Positions 38,252 to 44,774 of a DNA stretch of 64,000 nucleotides are shown here, in pieces. Made by a program: the position numbers and the translations under genes. The DNA comes from Pseudoalteromonas tunicata (GTDB lineage Bacteria; Pseudomonadota; Gammaproteobacteria; Enterobacterales; Alteromonadaceae): assembly GCF_002310815.1 (NCBI RefSeq), contig NZ_CP011032.1, positions 3,202,001 through 3,266,000 on the forward strand, written 5' to 3'. The stretch's first letter is position 1. Each line of letters starts with the position of its first letter. The notes below the pieces were generated by a model. The model made no database searches and was not told where the DNA came from. It worked only from the letters and a program-made list of their open reading frames with translations.

Positions 38252-39025
38252 GTGCGCTTAAAACTCAGGATGCTTTCTTTGATAGCTTTAATGGTTAGCC
38301 ATTTTAGTTATGCAGGCCAAGTGGCCATCGTTATTGATGATATTGGATATCATGAACGAGATCTCGACGCTATCAACCTCCCAGGAGAGGTGTCTTTTTC
38401 TATTCTACCCTTTACTCCTTTTGCTAAATCATTTGCACAACAAGCACAATTGGCAAAAAAAGAAATGCTATTACATGTCCCCATGCAAGCGATTAGCGGC
38501 AAAGAGCTCGGGCCCGGTGCAATTACCTATGATATGAATAAAGAGCAGCTTCAACATATGCTCGCCCGTGCTTTGGATGATTTACCACAAGTAAAAGGTA
38601 TCAATAACCATATGGGGTCACTTCTAACCCAAAAAATAAAACCTATGTCTTGGACCATGGAAGTACTAAAAGAAAGGAATTTGTACTTTTTAGATAGTAA
38701 AACAACTCAGCATAGCCAAGCACAACATATGGCTAATTTATTTGGTGTAGATAACATCAGTCGTCATGTTTTTATCGATAACATTCCAAGTGAAAAACAA
38801 ATGACTTTTCGAATGAACCAGCTGATCCGCCTCGCAAAAAAGAATGATTACGCAATTGCAATTGCGCATCCTTACCCTGAAACATTGGCCTTTCTTGAAC
38901 AAGCATTACCAAAATTAGCTGAGCAAGGGATCAAGTTAGTTCCACTGTCAGATTTAGTTACTAAAAAATATGTACGTTTAGCTGCTTTAACTCAAGCGAA
39001 TCCGCAACAGCAAACCCAAGAATAA
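38252..39025 (+). CDS. yibQ: Divergent polysaccharide deacetylase family protein YibQ
   Basis: The 257-residue protein has a signal peptide (RLKLRMLSLIALMVSHFSYAG) and the divergent polysaccharide deacetylase fold. It has VAIVIDDIGYHERDLDAI with the Asp pair, LLHVPMQA and INNHMGSLLTQ. The enzymatic activity of this family is unproven. The start GTG 38252 has only a weak ribosome binding site; ATG 38270 is possible. It is last in the gpmI-envC-ctpA-yibQ group and is followed by a strong terminator. Confidence 0.88.
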   Translation: MRLKLRMLSLIALMVSHFSYAGQVAIVIDDIGYHERDLDAINLPGEVSFSILPFTPFAKSFAQQAQLAKKEMLLHVPMQAISGKELGPGAITYDMNKEQLQHMLARALDDLPQVKGINNHMGSLLTQKIKPMSWTMEVLKERNLYFLDSKTTQHSQAQHMANLFGVDNISRHVFIDNIPSEKQMTFRMNQLIRLAKKNDYAIAIAHPYPETLAFLEQALPKLAEQGIKLVPLSDLVTKKYVRLAALTQANPQQQTQE

Positions 39026-39038
39026 GCCTTATAAAATA

Positions 39039-39070
39039 AAAAACCGCTTCAATTGAAGCGGTTTTTTTAT
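39039..39070. terminator. Bidirectional terminator yibQ/rpoH
   Basis: The 10-bp stem AAACCGCTTC / GAAGCGGTTT (39041-39064) has an AATT loop, A run before and T run after. It serves converging yibQ and rpoH. Confidence 0.92.
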
Positions 39071-39087
39071 TTTATTCAATTTATAAT

Positions 39088-39954
39088 TTAAGCCGTTAAC
39101 AGGTGCTGCAATTTCTTCATTGCTGTTTTCTCAAGCTGCCTAACACGTTCAGCTGAAACATCATATTTTACCGCTAAATCTTGTAGTGTAGCCTTGTCAT
39201 CACTTAACCAACGGGTCTGAACGATATCTTGAGAGCGTTCATCTAAACTTTTTAATGCGTGGAATAAACGATTGTGAGTTTGCTCTTCCCACTGCTCTTC
39301 TTCAATTTTATCGGCTAAATCAACACTATTATCTGTTAAATATTGCACAGGGGAATATTGCGTTGCAGAAGTTGAATCATCATCATCGGTTGTTAAGTCA
39401 AACACCATGTCTTGACTGCTCATTCGTGCTTCCATCTCACGTACATCTTTTTCTGTCACGCCTAATTCATTGGCAACTGTTGAAACTTCTTCAGGATTAA
39501 ACCAACCTAAACGCTTTTTATTCTTACGCAAATTAAAAAATAACTTACGCTGAGCTTTCGTAGTAGCAACTTTTACAATACGCCAATTTTTTAGCACATA
39601 TTCATGAATTTCAGCTTTAATCCAATGTACTGCAAATGATACCAAACGAACGCCTACAGTAGGGTCGAAGCGTTTTACAGCTTTCATTAAGCCGATATTC
39701 CCTTCTTGAATTAAATCAGCTTGTGGCAGTCCGTAGCCCGAATAACCTTTAGCTATGTGAGCAACAAAACGTAAATGCGACATGATAAGCTGTCTTGCAG
39801 CATCTAAGTCACCATCTTGCTGTAGTTTTACTGCTAATGCTTGTTCATCTTCAGCACTTAGCATTGCAATACCGCTAACAGCTTGAAGATATCCTTCCAT
39901 GCTGCCACTTTGCTGTGGAACTGTTAACATCATTGCTTGTAAATCTTTGCTCAT
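39088..39954 (-). CDS. rpoH: Heat-shock sigma factor RpoH (sigma-32)
   Basis: RpoH directs transcription of chaperone and protease genes. The 288-residue protein has region 2 ([30 protein letters not shown]), the RpoH-box QRKLFFNLR that binds DnaK/FtsH and distinguishes it from other sigma factors, and region 4 with [23 protein letters not shown] precedes the ATG. The leader carries a perfect CIRCE and a sigma-E-like promoter (separate entries), so its own synthesis looks heat-regulated at transcription. It follows ftsE-ftsX as in E. coli. Confidence 0.97.
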
Positions 39955-39987
39955 ATTTCACCTCTTGGGTCCATCTTTTAAACAATA

Positions 39988-40014
39988 TTAGCACTCTTTT
40001 ATCGAGAGTGCTAA
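39988..40014 (-). promoter_or_regulatory. CIRCE element (HrcA operator) in the rpoH leader
   Basis: TTAGCACTC at 39988-39996 and GAGTGCTAA at 40006-40014 are perfect 9-base inverted arms with a 9-base spacer, identical to the CIRCE consensus bound by the HrcA repressor. It starts 34 bases upstream of the rpoH ATG and lies just downstream of the predicted transcription start. Repressor binding there would block elongation or clearance. In RNA the same sequence would fold into a 9-bp hairpin before the ribosome binding site. hrcA itself is not in the window. Confidence 0.88.
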
Positions 40015-40029
40015 CTTCATTTCGTTTCT

Positions 40030-40056
40030 TATGACCTTAAATATTTACTTAAGTTC
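40030..40056 (-). promoter_or_regulatory. Sigma-E-type promoter of rpoH
   Basis: On the minus strand, GAACTT (40056-40051) and TCATA (40034-40030) are 16 bases apart. This fits the sigma-E pattern GAACTT-N16-TCnnA and resembles E. coli rpoH promoter P3. The same TTGAAC could also act as a sigma-70 -35, with a poor -10. The predicted start is at about 40022-40024, roughly 8-10 bases before the CIRCE. Confidence 0.6.
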
Positions 40057-40206
40057 AAAATATCTTGGTCGGATAATTCAAAGAAAAAGAAACAAAATAG
40101 AATGGATATAAATACGTAATATGTCTAATTTAAACTCTGCTTGTGCACACTCAAATATGTGCTTGCTACTTAACTTAACAAAATATGCGAACAGTGCAAG
40201 TAAGAA

Positions 40207-40236
40207 GATGTAAAAATATTTATCTATTTTTACATC
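40207..40236. repeat. Perfect 12-bp inverted repeat after ftsX
   Basis: GATGTAAAAATA (40207-40218) and TATTTTTACATC (40225-40236) are exact reverse complements around a 6-base loop. It may end the ftsEX transcript or be a protein-binding palindrome. There is no T run beyond the stem. Confidence 0.6.
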
Positions 40237-40240
40237 CATC

Positions 40241-40270
40241 AGATTTTAAAGAGTTTTAAAGAGTTTTAAA
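40241..40270. repeat. Three direct decamers next to the ftsX stop
   Basis: AGATTTTAAA followed by two exact GAGTTTTAAA copies fill 40241-40270, ending at the base before the ftsX stop codon. This is a short tandem array, possibly a slippage product. Confidence 0.6.
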
Positions 40271-41257
40271 TTATATTTTGTCCGGCTCGATTGCATCAAT
40301 ATAACGTTTCACTGATAAAAATGACCCACTTAAGCCAAGTGCGATACCCAATAAAACTAACAAACAAAACTCATTAAAAGACAACCCTTGCAATATAAAC
40401 TCGGTTTGATAAACACCCGCAACATGACTTACAGCTGACGCTAACCACCACATCATCACAACAATGGCGATAAATGAGAACAGCCCACCAATTAGACCAT
40501 ACCAAATACCGGTCCACAAAAATGGTGCTTGAATGAAATTATTGGTTGCACCAACCAGCTTCATCACCTGAATTTCTTCTTTTTTATCCATAATTGATAA
40601 GCGAATTGTATTGCCGATAATTAAAATGACGGAAGTCAGCAATAACAATGCGATTGTGATCACACTTTCGCGTAATAAAGAAAGCAAAGCATTTAGACGC
40701 TCTAGCCATTCAATATCTAATTTTCCAAAATCAACTTCCCTTTCTTGCTCAAGTTTAAGCAAAAGCTCCCTTGCGGCTTGAGCTGAGGTAAAGCGCTTAG
40801 TTGGAGTCACTAATACAACACTAGGTAGAGGATTTTCATCTAAATAATTAAGCGCCTGACCAAAGCCTGAAGCAACCTTAAATTCAGCCAATGCATCATC
40901 TTTAGAAATATAATCTACTTGGGCAATCTCTGGATAAAGCCTTAAGCGATTAACTAATGAGCCCGCCTCTTGCTCTGTCGTATCTTTTTTCACAAAGAGC
41001 GAGATTTCAGCTGCGTTCTCAAAACCACTGCTTACTAGCTGTACATTTTTAACCACTAAATAAAGAGTTGCTGGTAATGTTAAACTCAAACCAAGCACTG
41101 CAATGGTCATTAAAGAAGCTGCAGGTGTTCGCCACATTTCACCTAGGCTATGCACACCTTGGCGTAGGACGTTTTGGATTACAAAATACATATTGAGCAG
41201 CCAAGATTTTTGATAAGCCTCAGCCTGACTATTGCGCCCTTTAAATAAAATACTCAC
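40271..41257 (-). CDS. ftsX: Cell division protein FtsX
   Basis: FtsX is the membrane part of the FtsEX complex that passes ATPase action to EnvC and the septal amidases. The 328-residue protein has an N-terminal cytoplasmic tail and a first membrane helix (about 50-72). A periplasmic domain (about 75-195) and three further helices follow. The start is a GTG overlapping the ftsE stop as GTGA. envC, its functional partner, is also in this window. Confidence 0.95.
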   Translation of the reverse strand: MSILFKGRNSQAEAYQKSWLLNMYFVIQNVLRQGVHSLGEMWRTPAASLMTIAVLGLSLTLPATLYLVVKNVQLVSSGFENAAEISLFVKKDTTEQEAGSLVNRLRLYPEIAQVDYISKDDALAEFKVASGFGQALNYLDENPLPSVVLVTPTKRFTSAQAARELLLKLEQEREVDFGKLDIEWLERLNALLSLLRESVITIALLLLTSVILIIGNTIRLSIMDKKEEIQVMKLVGATNNFIQAPFLWTGIWYGLIGGLFSFIAIVVMMWWLASAVSHVAGVYQTEFILQGLSFNEFCLLVLLGIALGLSGSFLSVKRYIDAIEPDKI

Positions 41258-41981: not shown

Positions 41982-44624
41982 TTACTTATCATCCTGACTA
42001 AACAAAGCATTGATAAATTCATCACTTTTGAAGGCTCTTAAATCATCAATTCCTTCACCAACCCCGATATAACGAATTGGAATATTAAACTTATCGGCAA
42101 CCGCAAAAATAACTCCCCCTTTGGCTGTGCCATCAAGTTTAGTTAAACTAATGCCGGTTAATCCAACCGCTTTATTAAATAAATCAACTTGGCTAATCGC
42201 GTTTTGACCAGTACCTGCATCAATAGTCAGCATCACTTCATGTGGAGCGTCAGGATCAAGCTTTTTCATGACACGAGCAATTTTTTCTAACTCTTGCATG
42301 AGGTTGTCTTTATTTTGTAAGCGACCTGCGGTATCGGCAATCAGTATATCCACCTTTCTCGCTTTGGCTGCTTGAAAAGCATCAAAAATGACTGATGCGC
42401 TGTCCGCACCGGTATGCTGAGCAATCACCGGTATATCATTCCGTTGCCCCCAAACTTGTAATTGCTCAACAGCTGCTGCTCTAAAGGTATCACCCGCTGC
42501 AAGCATTACAGATTTACCTTCTGCTTGAAATTGCTTAGCCAGTTTTCCGATAGTGGTAGTTTTACCTACACCATTAACACCGACCATTAAAATAACAAAT
42601 GGCCCGGTTGCTTTTTCAGTATCAAGCGCTTGCTCCGCTGACTTTAACATTTGCGCCATTTCTTGTTTTAAAAGGTCGTATAACGCATCACCATCTTTTA
42701 ATTGCTTACGATCAGCCGCTTCGGTTAAACGAGCAATTAATTTAAGCGTAGTATCAACGCCTAAATCAGCAGTTAATAATTGCGTTTCTAACTCTTCAAA
42801 TAATTCGTCATCTATTTTCTTACCTGAGAAAATATTTATAAAACCAGAACCGATTGATTGTTTTGTTTTGATTAGGCTCTTTTTCAAGCGTGAAAAAAAG
42901 CTATCTTTTTTAGGGCTTTCTTCTGCAGGCAAGGCTTGAATCTTTGCTTCTTGTGCTAAGCGCGCTTCTTCTGCTAAACGAGCCTCTTCTGCTAAACGCG
43001 CTTCTTCTGCTAAGCGTGCTTCTTCTGCTAAGCGTGCTTCTTCTGCTAAACGTGCTTCTTCTGCTAAGCGTGCTTCTTCTGCTAAACGAGTTTCTTCTGC
43101 TAAACGTGTTTCTTCTGCTAAGCGAGCTTCACCAGCTAAGCGCGCTTCTTCTGCTAAGCGTGCTTCTTCTGCTAAGCGAGCTTCTTCTGCTAAACGTGCT
43201 TCTTCTGCTAAGCGTGCATCTTCTGCTAAACGTGCATCTTCTGCTAAACGTGTTTCTTCTGCTAAGCGAACTTCACCAGCTAAGCGTGCTTCTTCTGCTA
43301 AGCGAGCTTCTTCTGCTAAGCGTACTTCTTCTGCTACACGTGCTTCTTCTGCTAAACGTGCTTCTTCTGCTAAACGTGCTTCTTCTGCTAAGCGTGCTTC
43401 TTCTGCTAAGCGTGCTTCTTCTGCTAAGCGTGCTTCTTCTGCTAAGCGTGCTTCTTCTGCTAAGCGTGCTTCTTCTGCTAAGCGTGCTTCTTCTGCTAAG
43501 CGTGCTTCTTCTGCTAAGCGTGCTTCTTCTGCTAAGCGTGCTTCTTCTGCTAAGCGTGCTTCTTCTGCTAAGCGTGCTTCTTCTGCTAAGCGTGCTTCTT
43601 CTGCTAAGCGTGCTTCTTCTGCTAAGCGTGCTTCTTCTGCTAAACGAGTTTCTTCTGCTAAACGTGTTTCTTCTGCTAAGCGAGCTTCACCAGCTAAGCG
43701 TGCTTCTTCTGCTAAGCGTGCTTCTTCTGCTAAACGAGTTTCTTCTGCTAAACGTGTTTCTTCTGCTAAGCGAGCTTCACCAGCTAAGCGTGCTTCTTCT
43801 GCTAAGCGTGCTTCTTCTGCTAAACGAGTTTCTTCTGCTAAACGTGTTTCTTCTGCTAAGCGAGCTTCACCAGCTAAGCGTGCTTCTTCTGCTAAGCGTG
43901 CTTCTTCTGCTAAACGAGTTTCTTCTGCTAAACGTGTTTCTTCTGCTAAGCGAGCTTCACCAGCTAAGCGTGCTTCTTCTGCTAAGCGTGCTTCTTCTGC
44001 TAAACGAGTTTCTTCTGCTAAACGTGTTTCTTCTGCTAAGCGAGCTTCACCAGCTAAGCGTGCTTCTTCTGCTAAGCGTGCTTCTTCTGCTAAACGAGTT
44101 TCTTCTGCTAAACGTGTTTCTTCTGCTAAGCGAGCTTCACCAGCTAAGCGTGCTTCTTCTGCTAAGCGTGCTTCTTCTGCTAAACGAGTTTCTTCTGCTA
44201 AACGTGTTTCTTCTGCTAAGCGAGCTTCACCTGCTAAACGTGCTTCTTCTGCTAAACGTGCTTCTTCTGCTAAACGTGCTTCTTCTGCTAAACGTGCATC
44301 TTCTGCTAAACGTGTTTCTTCTGCTAAGCGAGCTTCACCAGCTAAGCGTGCTTCATCTGCTAAGCGAGCTTCACCAGCTAAGCGTGCTTCTTCTGCTAAG
44401 CGAGCTTCACCAGCTAAGCGTGTTTCTTCTGCTAAACGTGCTTCTTCTGCTAAACGTGCTTCTTCTGCTAAGCGAGCTTCCTCTGCTAAGCGAGCTTCCT
44501 CCGCTAAGCGAGCTTCTTCTGCTAAACGTGCTTCTTCTGCTAAGCGTGCTTGCTCTTGAACTTCATTGGTTGTGTCTTTTTCACCAAAGCCTAACCAAGA
44601 TAAAAATCTATTTTTTTTTGCCAT
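41982..44624 (-). CDS. ftsY: Signal recognition particle receptor FtsY with giant repeat domain
   Basis: FtsY docks SRP-ribosome complexes at the membrane and hydrolyses GTP with Ffh. Start ATG 44624 gives MAKKNRFLSWLGFGEKD, matching the E. coli N-terminus; an in-frame extension to 44687 does not. Residues about 26-559 are 89 hexapeptides of consensus A-R-L-A-E-E replacing the ordinary acidic A domain. The NG domain (about 575-880) is intact: SFFSRLKKSLIKTKQSIGSGF, GVNGVGKTTTIGKLA (G1), GDTFRAAAVEQL, DTAGRLQNK and TKLDGTAKGG. At 880 residues it is far longer than E. coli FtsY (497). ftsE follows; rsmD is divergent, as in E. coli. Confidence 0.95.
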   Translation of the reverse strand: MAKKNRFLSWLGFGEKDTTNEVQEQARLAEEARLAEEARLAEEARLAEEARLAEEARLAEEARLAEETRLAGEARLAEEARLAGEARLADEARLAGEARLAEETRLAEDARLAEEARLAEEARLAEEARLAGEARLAEETRLAEETRLAEEARLAEEARLAGEARLAEETRLAEETRLAEEARLAEEARLAGEARLAEETRLAEETRLAEEARLAEEARLAGEARLAEETRLAEETRLAEEARLAEEARLAGEARLAEETRLAEETRLAEEARLAEEARLAGEARLAEETRLAEETRLAEEARLAEEARLAGEARLAEETRLAEETRLAEEARLAEEARLAEEARLAEEARLAEEARLAEEARLAEEARLAEEARLAEEARLAEEARLAEEARLAEEARLAEEARLAEEARLAEEARLAEEARLAEEARVAEEVRLAEEARLAEEARLAGEVRLAEETRLAEDARLAEDARLAEEARLAEEARLAEEARLAEEARLAGEARLAEETRLAEETRLAEEARLAEEARLAEEARLAEEARLAEEARLAEEARLAEEARLAQEAKIQALPAEESPKKDSFFSRLKKSLIKTKQSIGSGFINIFSGKKIDDELFEELETQLLTADLGVDTTLKLIARLTEAADRKQLKDGDALYDLLKQEMAQMLKSAEQALDTEKATGPFVILMVGVNGVGKTTTIGKLAKQFQAEGKSVMLAAGDTFRAAAVEQLQVWGQRNDIPVIAQHTGADSASVIFDAFQAAKARKVDILIADTAGRLQNKDNLMQELEKIARVMKKLDPDAPHEVMLTIDAGTGQNAISQVDLFNKAVGLTGISLTKLDGTAKGGVIFAVADKFNIPIRYIGVGEGIDDLRAFKSDEFINALFSQDDK
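42948..44549 (-). repeat. In-frame 18-bp tandem array, 89 units, inside ftsY
   Basis: Exactly 1602 bases (89 x 18) encode consecutive hexapeptides A-R-L-A-E-E. Variants include T-R-L-A-E-E, A-R-L-A-G-E, D- or V-starting units, one A-R-V-A-E-E, and a last A-R-L-A-Q-E. No unit breaks the reading frame. From about 43385 to 43640 consecutive 18-mers are identical at the DNA level, indicating recent slippage or unequal crossover. The encoded segment is Ala/Glu/Arg/Leu only and strongly helix-favouring, net charge about -1 per unit. Confidence 0.97.
43603..44231 (-). repeat. Exact 90-bp higher-order repeat, seven copies
   Basis: Within the hexapeptide array, a block of five units (two Thr-type, two Ala-type, one Gly-type) recurs with a period of exactly 90 bases and no mismatch over 629 bases. 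A related block lies near 43086-43150. This is a segmental duplication on top of the basic 18-bp array. Confidence 0.92.
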
Positions 44625-44774
44625 ACTAGCTAATGACCACTTATAAAATCTGATAAACTGATGCGTGCAATATGGTAACACTTTCATTAACAGAATGAAA
44701 AAGTACCGCAGCGATAAAATTTAGCCCATATACTATATGAGAGCGTTTCTCGACACCATTTTTTAGTGATATTA

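Follow-up and report, generated by a model that had tools for sequence, protein, structure and literature searches.

The 64,000-nucleotide stretch of Pseudoalteromonas tunicata DNA analysed here, which we call the window, encodes on its reverse strand the heat-shock sigma factor sigma-32 (rpoH), and the leader of this gene contains a palindrome identical to the controlling inverted repeat of chaperone expression (CIRCE), the predicted operator of the repressor HrcA. A sequence-only reading of this locus had proposed that repression of the sigma-32 gene by HrcA would join the two classical heat-shock circuits, and the comparative evidence assembled below, drawn from sequences, lends support to that proposal. 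The elements of the locus are:

39988..40014, reverse strand (that of rpoH): CIRCE, predicted HrcA operator (palindrome), assigned by exact match and conservation before rpoH

39088..39954, reverse strand: rpoH, heat-shock sigma factor sigma-32, 288 amino acids (TIGR02392, 411.9 bits against a cut-off of 323.1)

39959..39964, reverse strand: rpoH ribosome binding site GAGGTG, read from the sequence

40029..40056, reverse strand: candidate rpoH promoter GAACTT-N16-TCATAA, sigma-E-like and weak, from a leader script without shuffled control

On rescanning, the palindrome TTAGCACTC-N9-GAGTGCTAA showed no mismatch to the CIRCE consensus, so that its description as letter-perfect was accurate; its placement upstream of the rpoH ribosome binding site was likewise confirmed, the latter lying within the 33 base pairs (bp) that separate CIRCE from the ATG. 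It is the single match in the window at up to 3 mismatches (shuffled mean 0.04), and in the whole genome (4,959,443 bases, 2 contigs) the rpoH site is the one CIRCE at up to 2 mismatches. Nine further CIRCE-like places, all with 3 mismatches and near-identical to each other, look like copies of one repeated gene, which we would guess to be that of 23S rRNA. The further copies that might have been expected at groESL, dnaK or hrcA did not turn up anywhere in the genome at up to 2 mismatches; for the groESL and dnaK operons this rests on the genome scan, and the groES leader, when itself read, contained a near match to a sigma-32 promoter (by eye) and no CIRCE. As there is no second site, rpoH is the only predicted HrcA target in this genome.

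This arrangement extends through most of the genus. CIRCE was recovered at up to 2 mismatches in 97 of the 99 Pseudoalteromonas genomes, as against one match of a reversed control pattern in each of 5, and HrcA was found in all 99. Eighty-nine genomes possess a single CIRCE and 8 a second site; seven of the second sites are among those listed, each with 2 mismatches, and that of G044 is outside the list. In every one of the 30 loci opened out of the 97, rpoH lies 32–34 bp downstream of CIRCE. Across these loci and the window the CIRCE arms are nearly invariant while the N9 spacer takes 19 forms, and since the first T and last A of the spacer are constant, the arms of the palindrome measure 10 bp in this genus. 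Some loci can be tied to named species or strains through their RpoH proteins, with identities of 100% between L035 and P. luteoviolacea, 99.7% between L016 and Pseudoalteromonas sp. FUC4, and 99.3% between L017 and P. prydzensis. The sister genus g18 is probably Rheinheimera, to judge from the RpoH of its locus L081, which is identical to that of R. pleomorphica over 279 residues.

The same association recurs at the level of the family and the order, and the conservation of the palindrome in relatives, on which the proposal had been made to depend, is therefore seen at all three levels. Among 246 genomes of the family, HrcA scored over the cut-off in 52 and CIRCE (up to 1 mismatch, as in all counts of genomes beyond the genus) occurred in 54; 52 have both, none has HrcA only, 2 have CIRCE only (G218, and G205 from a genus otherwise with HrcA) and 192 have neither. 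Within one genus of the family (g50), the four of 8 genomes with hrcA are the same four with CIRCE. All 42 of the 54 CIRCE-bearing genomes that lie outside Pseudoalteromonas were opened, and rpoH was found behind CIRCE in 41. Among 295 genomes of the order, 31 have CIRCE and all 31 of these have HrcA, with G585 alone having HrcA over the cut-off and no CIRCE. The loci opened in family f7 include an rpoH CIRCE from 20 genomes and a groES site from 11; in family f20 each of the 4 CIRCE genomes has one site, before rpoH. Of the rpoH loci, 20 of the 27 at the level of the order and 6 of the 41 from the family outside Pseudoalteromonas have tandem CIRCEs ahead of the gene (up to 3 mismatches). Their spacing in f7, g35, g49 and g50 (for example, L160, L100, L152 and L093) is 31–34 bp, or about three turns of DNA. 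A set of 2-mismatch sites without rpoH (L072, L089–L091, L097, L099, L101 and L153) was rejected as chance, because the reversed control likewise matches in 5 of the 99 genomes of the genus and in a few of the family.

Most model gammaproteobacteria had been noted to lack HrcA, but in the class as a whole the repressor is not rare: the HrcA C-terminal domain (PF01628) was matched in 228 of the 316 genomes sampled, and CIRCE before rpoH is common. CIRCE was present in 269 of 369 genomes, and of the 312 genomes covered by both searches 214 have both, 13 HrcA only, 12 CIRCE only and 73 neither. Target genes were read from the 38 of the 269 genomes for which every CIRCE was listed. Their 75 sites precede groES (34), rpoH (31), nadK (7) and hrcA (2) or adjoin a contig end (1); counted by genome, 31 of the 38 have an rpoH CIRCE and 34 a groES CIRCE. 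The nadK and hrcA sites are probably of one kind, because these genes are often divergent neighbours. HrcA without CIRCE was noted in pairs of genomes from three families, f39 (G616, G876), f112 (G689, G812) and f174 (G751, G862), which may have come to use an altered operator. A pattern combining the CIRCE core and an RpoH motif, run against named genomes, returned at least 119 stretches; in each of the 80 listed, rpoH follows CIRCE (up to 3 mismatches), which the pattern itself requires. The listed genomes include Methylocaldum, Dyella, Parahaliea, Nitrosomonas europaea, Rheinheimera, Methyloversatilis, a metagenome-assembled genome (MAG) of the Geobacteraceae and three Pseudoalteromonas, along with two assemblies labelled Verrucomicrobia and Chitinophaga, whose matches may be misplaced contigs. 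On the predictions from these surveys, rpoH would be the sole CIRCE target in Pseudoalteromonas and its sister genera, and elsewhere in the class groESL would usually be a target too.

The gene of the repressor, whose absence had been named as fatal to the idea, is present in the genome: hrcA sits between a divergent nadK and grpE. Its product passes PF01628 (34.3 to 35.2 bits, cut-off 22.2), and an HrcA fold is predicted over the whole protein length. Among the best 120 of its 948 homologues, the named ones with at least 49% identity are all from Pseudoalteromonas, bar one Pseudomonadota bacterium MAG, and the score drops from 191 to 73 bits beyond this set.

The control of hrcA itself was approached through the sigma-32 pattern CTTGAA-N12-16-CCCCAT. 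Six exact matches occur in the genome, at grpE, an hslV-like open reading frame (ORF), an htpG-like ORF and 3 other places. The hrcA leaders reach at least 10 of the 12 consensus letters in 31/31 loci of the genus, compared with 3% of shuffled leaders, 0/31 nadK leaders and 0/30 rpoH leaders; lowering the threshold to 9 letters admits 2/30 rpoH and 0/31 nadK leaders. Among the hrcA leaders from the remaining genera of the family, 15 of 30 have at least 10 letters, and 8 of these match perfectly (shuffles 2%). With a sigma-32-like promoter at hrcA and CIRCE at rpoH, the predicted circuit amounts to a negative feedback loop.

The candidate rpoH promoter GAACTT-N16-TCATAA, which resembles sigma-E promoters, would put the transcript start a few bases before CIRCE; a sigma-70 consensus scan returned no promoter at the rpoH start region in the window. 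Among the 30 other rpoH leaders read in the genus, 24 have sigma-70-like hexamers ending 4–7 bp before CIRCE (no shuffled control), and the sigma-E-like leader of the P. tunicata window differs from most of them. If these promoters are read rightly, CIRCE would span the start of the rpoH transcript.

From these computed features we infer HrcA binding, repression of rpoH, its release by heat and use of the hrcA promoter, in the following sequence: 1) At normal temperature HrcA would occupy CIRCE at or just after the rpoH transcript start and, by blocking transcription start or clearance, would keep rpoH transcription low. 2) Heat, or the loss of chaperone help, would inactivate HrcA, and rpoH would be transcribed. 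3) Sigma-32 would then transcribe groESL, grpE, hslVU and htpG, and hrcA along with them. 4) Newly made HrcA would switch rpoH off again. We consider it very probable that the palindrome is a working HrcA operator and that the sigma-32/HrcA circuit is as proposed. With somewhat less assurance, we favour a broader view, in which HrcA in Pseudoalteromonas and its sister genera is dedicated to governing one target, sigma-32, through a loop of two genes, its sensor domain having been reshaped in Pseudoalteromonas, and in which rpoH is an old core HrcA target across HrcA-bearing Gammaproteobacteria, where the two systems would stand in a hierarchy.

Several observations weigh against this interpretation. 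In the genus, G016 and G067 (93% complete) have HrcA but lack any CIRCE with 2 or fewer mismatches, whether through a gap in the assembly or because the operator has truly been lost. In the class, the 13 genomes with HrcA only and the 12 with CIRCE only depart from strict co-occurrence, and Fisher values for co-occurrence overstate the support, because genomes within one clade do not count as independent data points. The HrcA protein is itself atypical. Its DNA-binding domain (PF03444) falls below the cut-off (14.1 versus 21 bits), despite which the segment around SAT(I/V)RN and SPHTSAGR(V/I)PT is retained; it also misses TIGR00331, the NCBIfam equivalog of HrcA (99.6 versus 197.2 bits), and is hence a divergent HrcA rather than an equivalog by that standard. 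Its C-terminal part is 17% identical to other HrcAs, in a comparison in which one alignment row (P0052) fell in neither group. Given this low identity and the sub-cut-off profile scores, the signal to which HrcA responds may differ. As for the sigma-32 pattern, 3 of its 6 matches are not before a heat-shock gene, and the reversed control also gives 3. Finally, the sigma-32-like promoter of hrcA ends 9–12 bp before the annotated ATG in 29 of 31 loci of the genus, and the message would consequently be almost leaderless.

Among the alternatives, the one that survives best holds that HrcA binds and merely fine-tunes, sigma-32 being governed mainly by translation and protein turnover in the manner of Escherichia coli. 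Sigma-32 control in E. coli is indeed mostly post-transcriptional, acting through translation and turnover of the protein, and 194 of the 246 family genomes lack HrcA over the cut-off. Against a minor role, the arms are perfect or near-perfect in almost all species of the genus, and outside it 26 of the 68 loci from the family and order have CIRCE in tandem ahead of rpoH (up to 3 mismatches); both features suggest that tight binding matters. We hold this alternative to be unlikely.

A considerably more doubtful alternative is that the palindrome acts in the rpoH mRNA, as a hairpin that tunes stability or translation by temperature, with HrcA incidental or secondary. The leader RNA can indeed form an 11-pair hairpin (whole-leader z of -2.78). 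The CIRCE stem itself contains neither the ribosome binding site nor the start codon, but both are contacted by an additional, weaker predicted stem. The pattern of substitutions in 235 rpoH CIRCE sites is divided. Of 87 changed pairs, 48 are altered on one side with G-U pairing kept, pairing is lost in 36, and 3 have both sides altered and still pair. G replaces A3 on the 5' arm 30 times, keeping a G-U pair, against 4 times on the 3' arm, breaking the pair, a bias not shared by 49 groES sites (1 and 1); yet position 9 displays the opposite bias, with 1 G-U and 7 broken pairs. An Rfam scan of 39000–40300 yielded no family at the gathering score, with lower matches only. CIRCE is moreover absent where hrcA is absent, both family-wide and inside genus g50. 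A pure RNA element seems the less likely reading of these sequences, though the changes that keep G-U pairing, the A3 bias and the weak second stem may point to some role for the hairpin.

The possibility that the palindrome is a mere remnant, or arose by chance, has a negligible probability: G218, without an HrcA match, has a perfect CIRCE with no rpoH alongside, but the chance rate of 0.04 in the window at 3 mismatches, the conservation in the genus and the family-wide co-occurrence with HrcA led us to reject a chance origin. This CIRCE of G218 (L092, 1501–1527) is intergenic, and its spacer turns it into a near-perfect hairpin.

Compared with previously known systems, the predicted circuit combines familiar components in an unfamiliar way. 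The classical HrcA/CIRCE regulon, of the Bacillus subtilis type, comprises groESL and the dnaK operon. Pseudoalteromonas has the operator, the repressor family, the leader position and the adjacency of hrcA to grpE in common with it; its target, however, is a sigma factor instead of chaperones, and its hrcA lacks a CIRCE, having a sigma-32-like promoter. The E. coli-type sigma-32 regulon is resembled in the sigma-32-like promoters at grpE, groES and the hslV- and htpG-like ORFs, and in the position of rpoH beside ftsX- and ftsE-like ORFs; the ORFs upstream of rpoH are presumably ftsX, ftsE and ftsY in their usual order. In the ftsY-like ORF (41982–44687, reverse strand, 901 amino acids) a large N-terminal part consists of an RLAEEA-type repeat array. 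What differs from the E. coli type is the addition of a dedicated predicted DNA-binding repressor of rpoH, apparently within the sigma-32 regulon. E. coli is not known to carry hrcA, and it was not among the 7 genomes matched when it served as control in the HrcA search; lacking the gene, E. coli could not have revealed HrcA control of rpoH.

The closest precedent is in Geobacter sulfurreducens, for which a predicted perfect CIRCE before rpoH, at position -51, has been described, accompanied by groESL and hrcA sites (Rodionov et al. 2004, PMC545781). The perfect predicted site before rpoH is shared with Pseudoalteromonas, in which, by contrast, groES has no CIRCE and rpoH holds the sole site. 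In the literature on HrcA, CIRCE and rpoH, as far as its accessible text goes, CIRCE before rpoH appeared only in that report, and no such report was found for Gammaproteobacteria. As far as could be checked, three things appear to be new: that rpoH is the exclusive target, that the circuit forms a feedback loop, and how widely it occurs.

Accounts of heat-shock control usually treat HrcA and the sigma factor separately, and how the two are joined now becomes testable in a tractable marine genus. With a single target, the whole effect of HrcA would pass through one promoter, and one deletion or one operator change would test the circuit. The surveyed genomes may also represent a natural series of regulon shrinkage, from groESL together with rpoH, through rpoH alone, to neither operator nor repressor. 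More generally, the findings suggest that in many of the Gammaproteobacteria with HrcA this repressor controls the transcription of rpoH.
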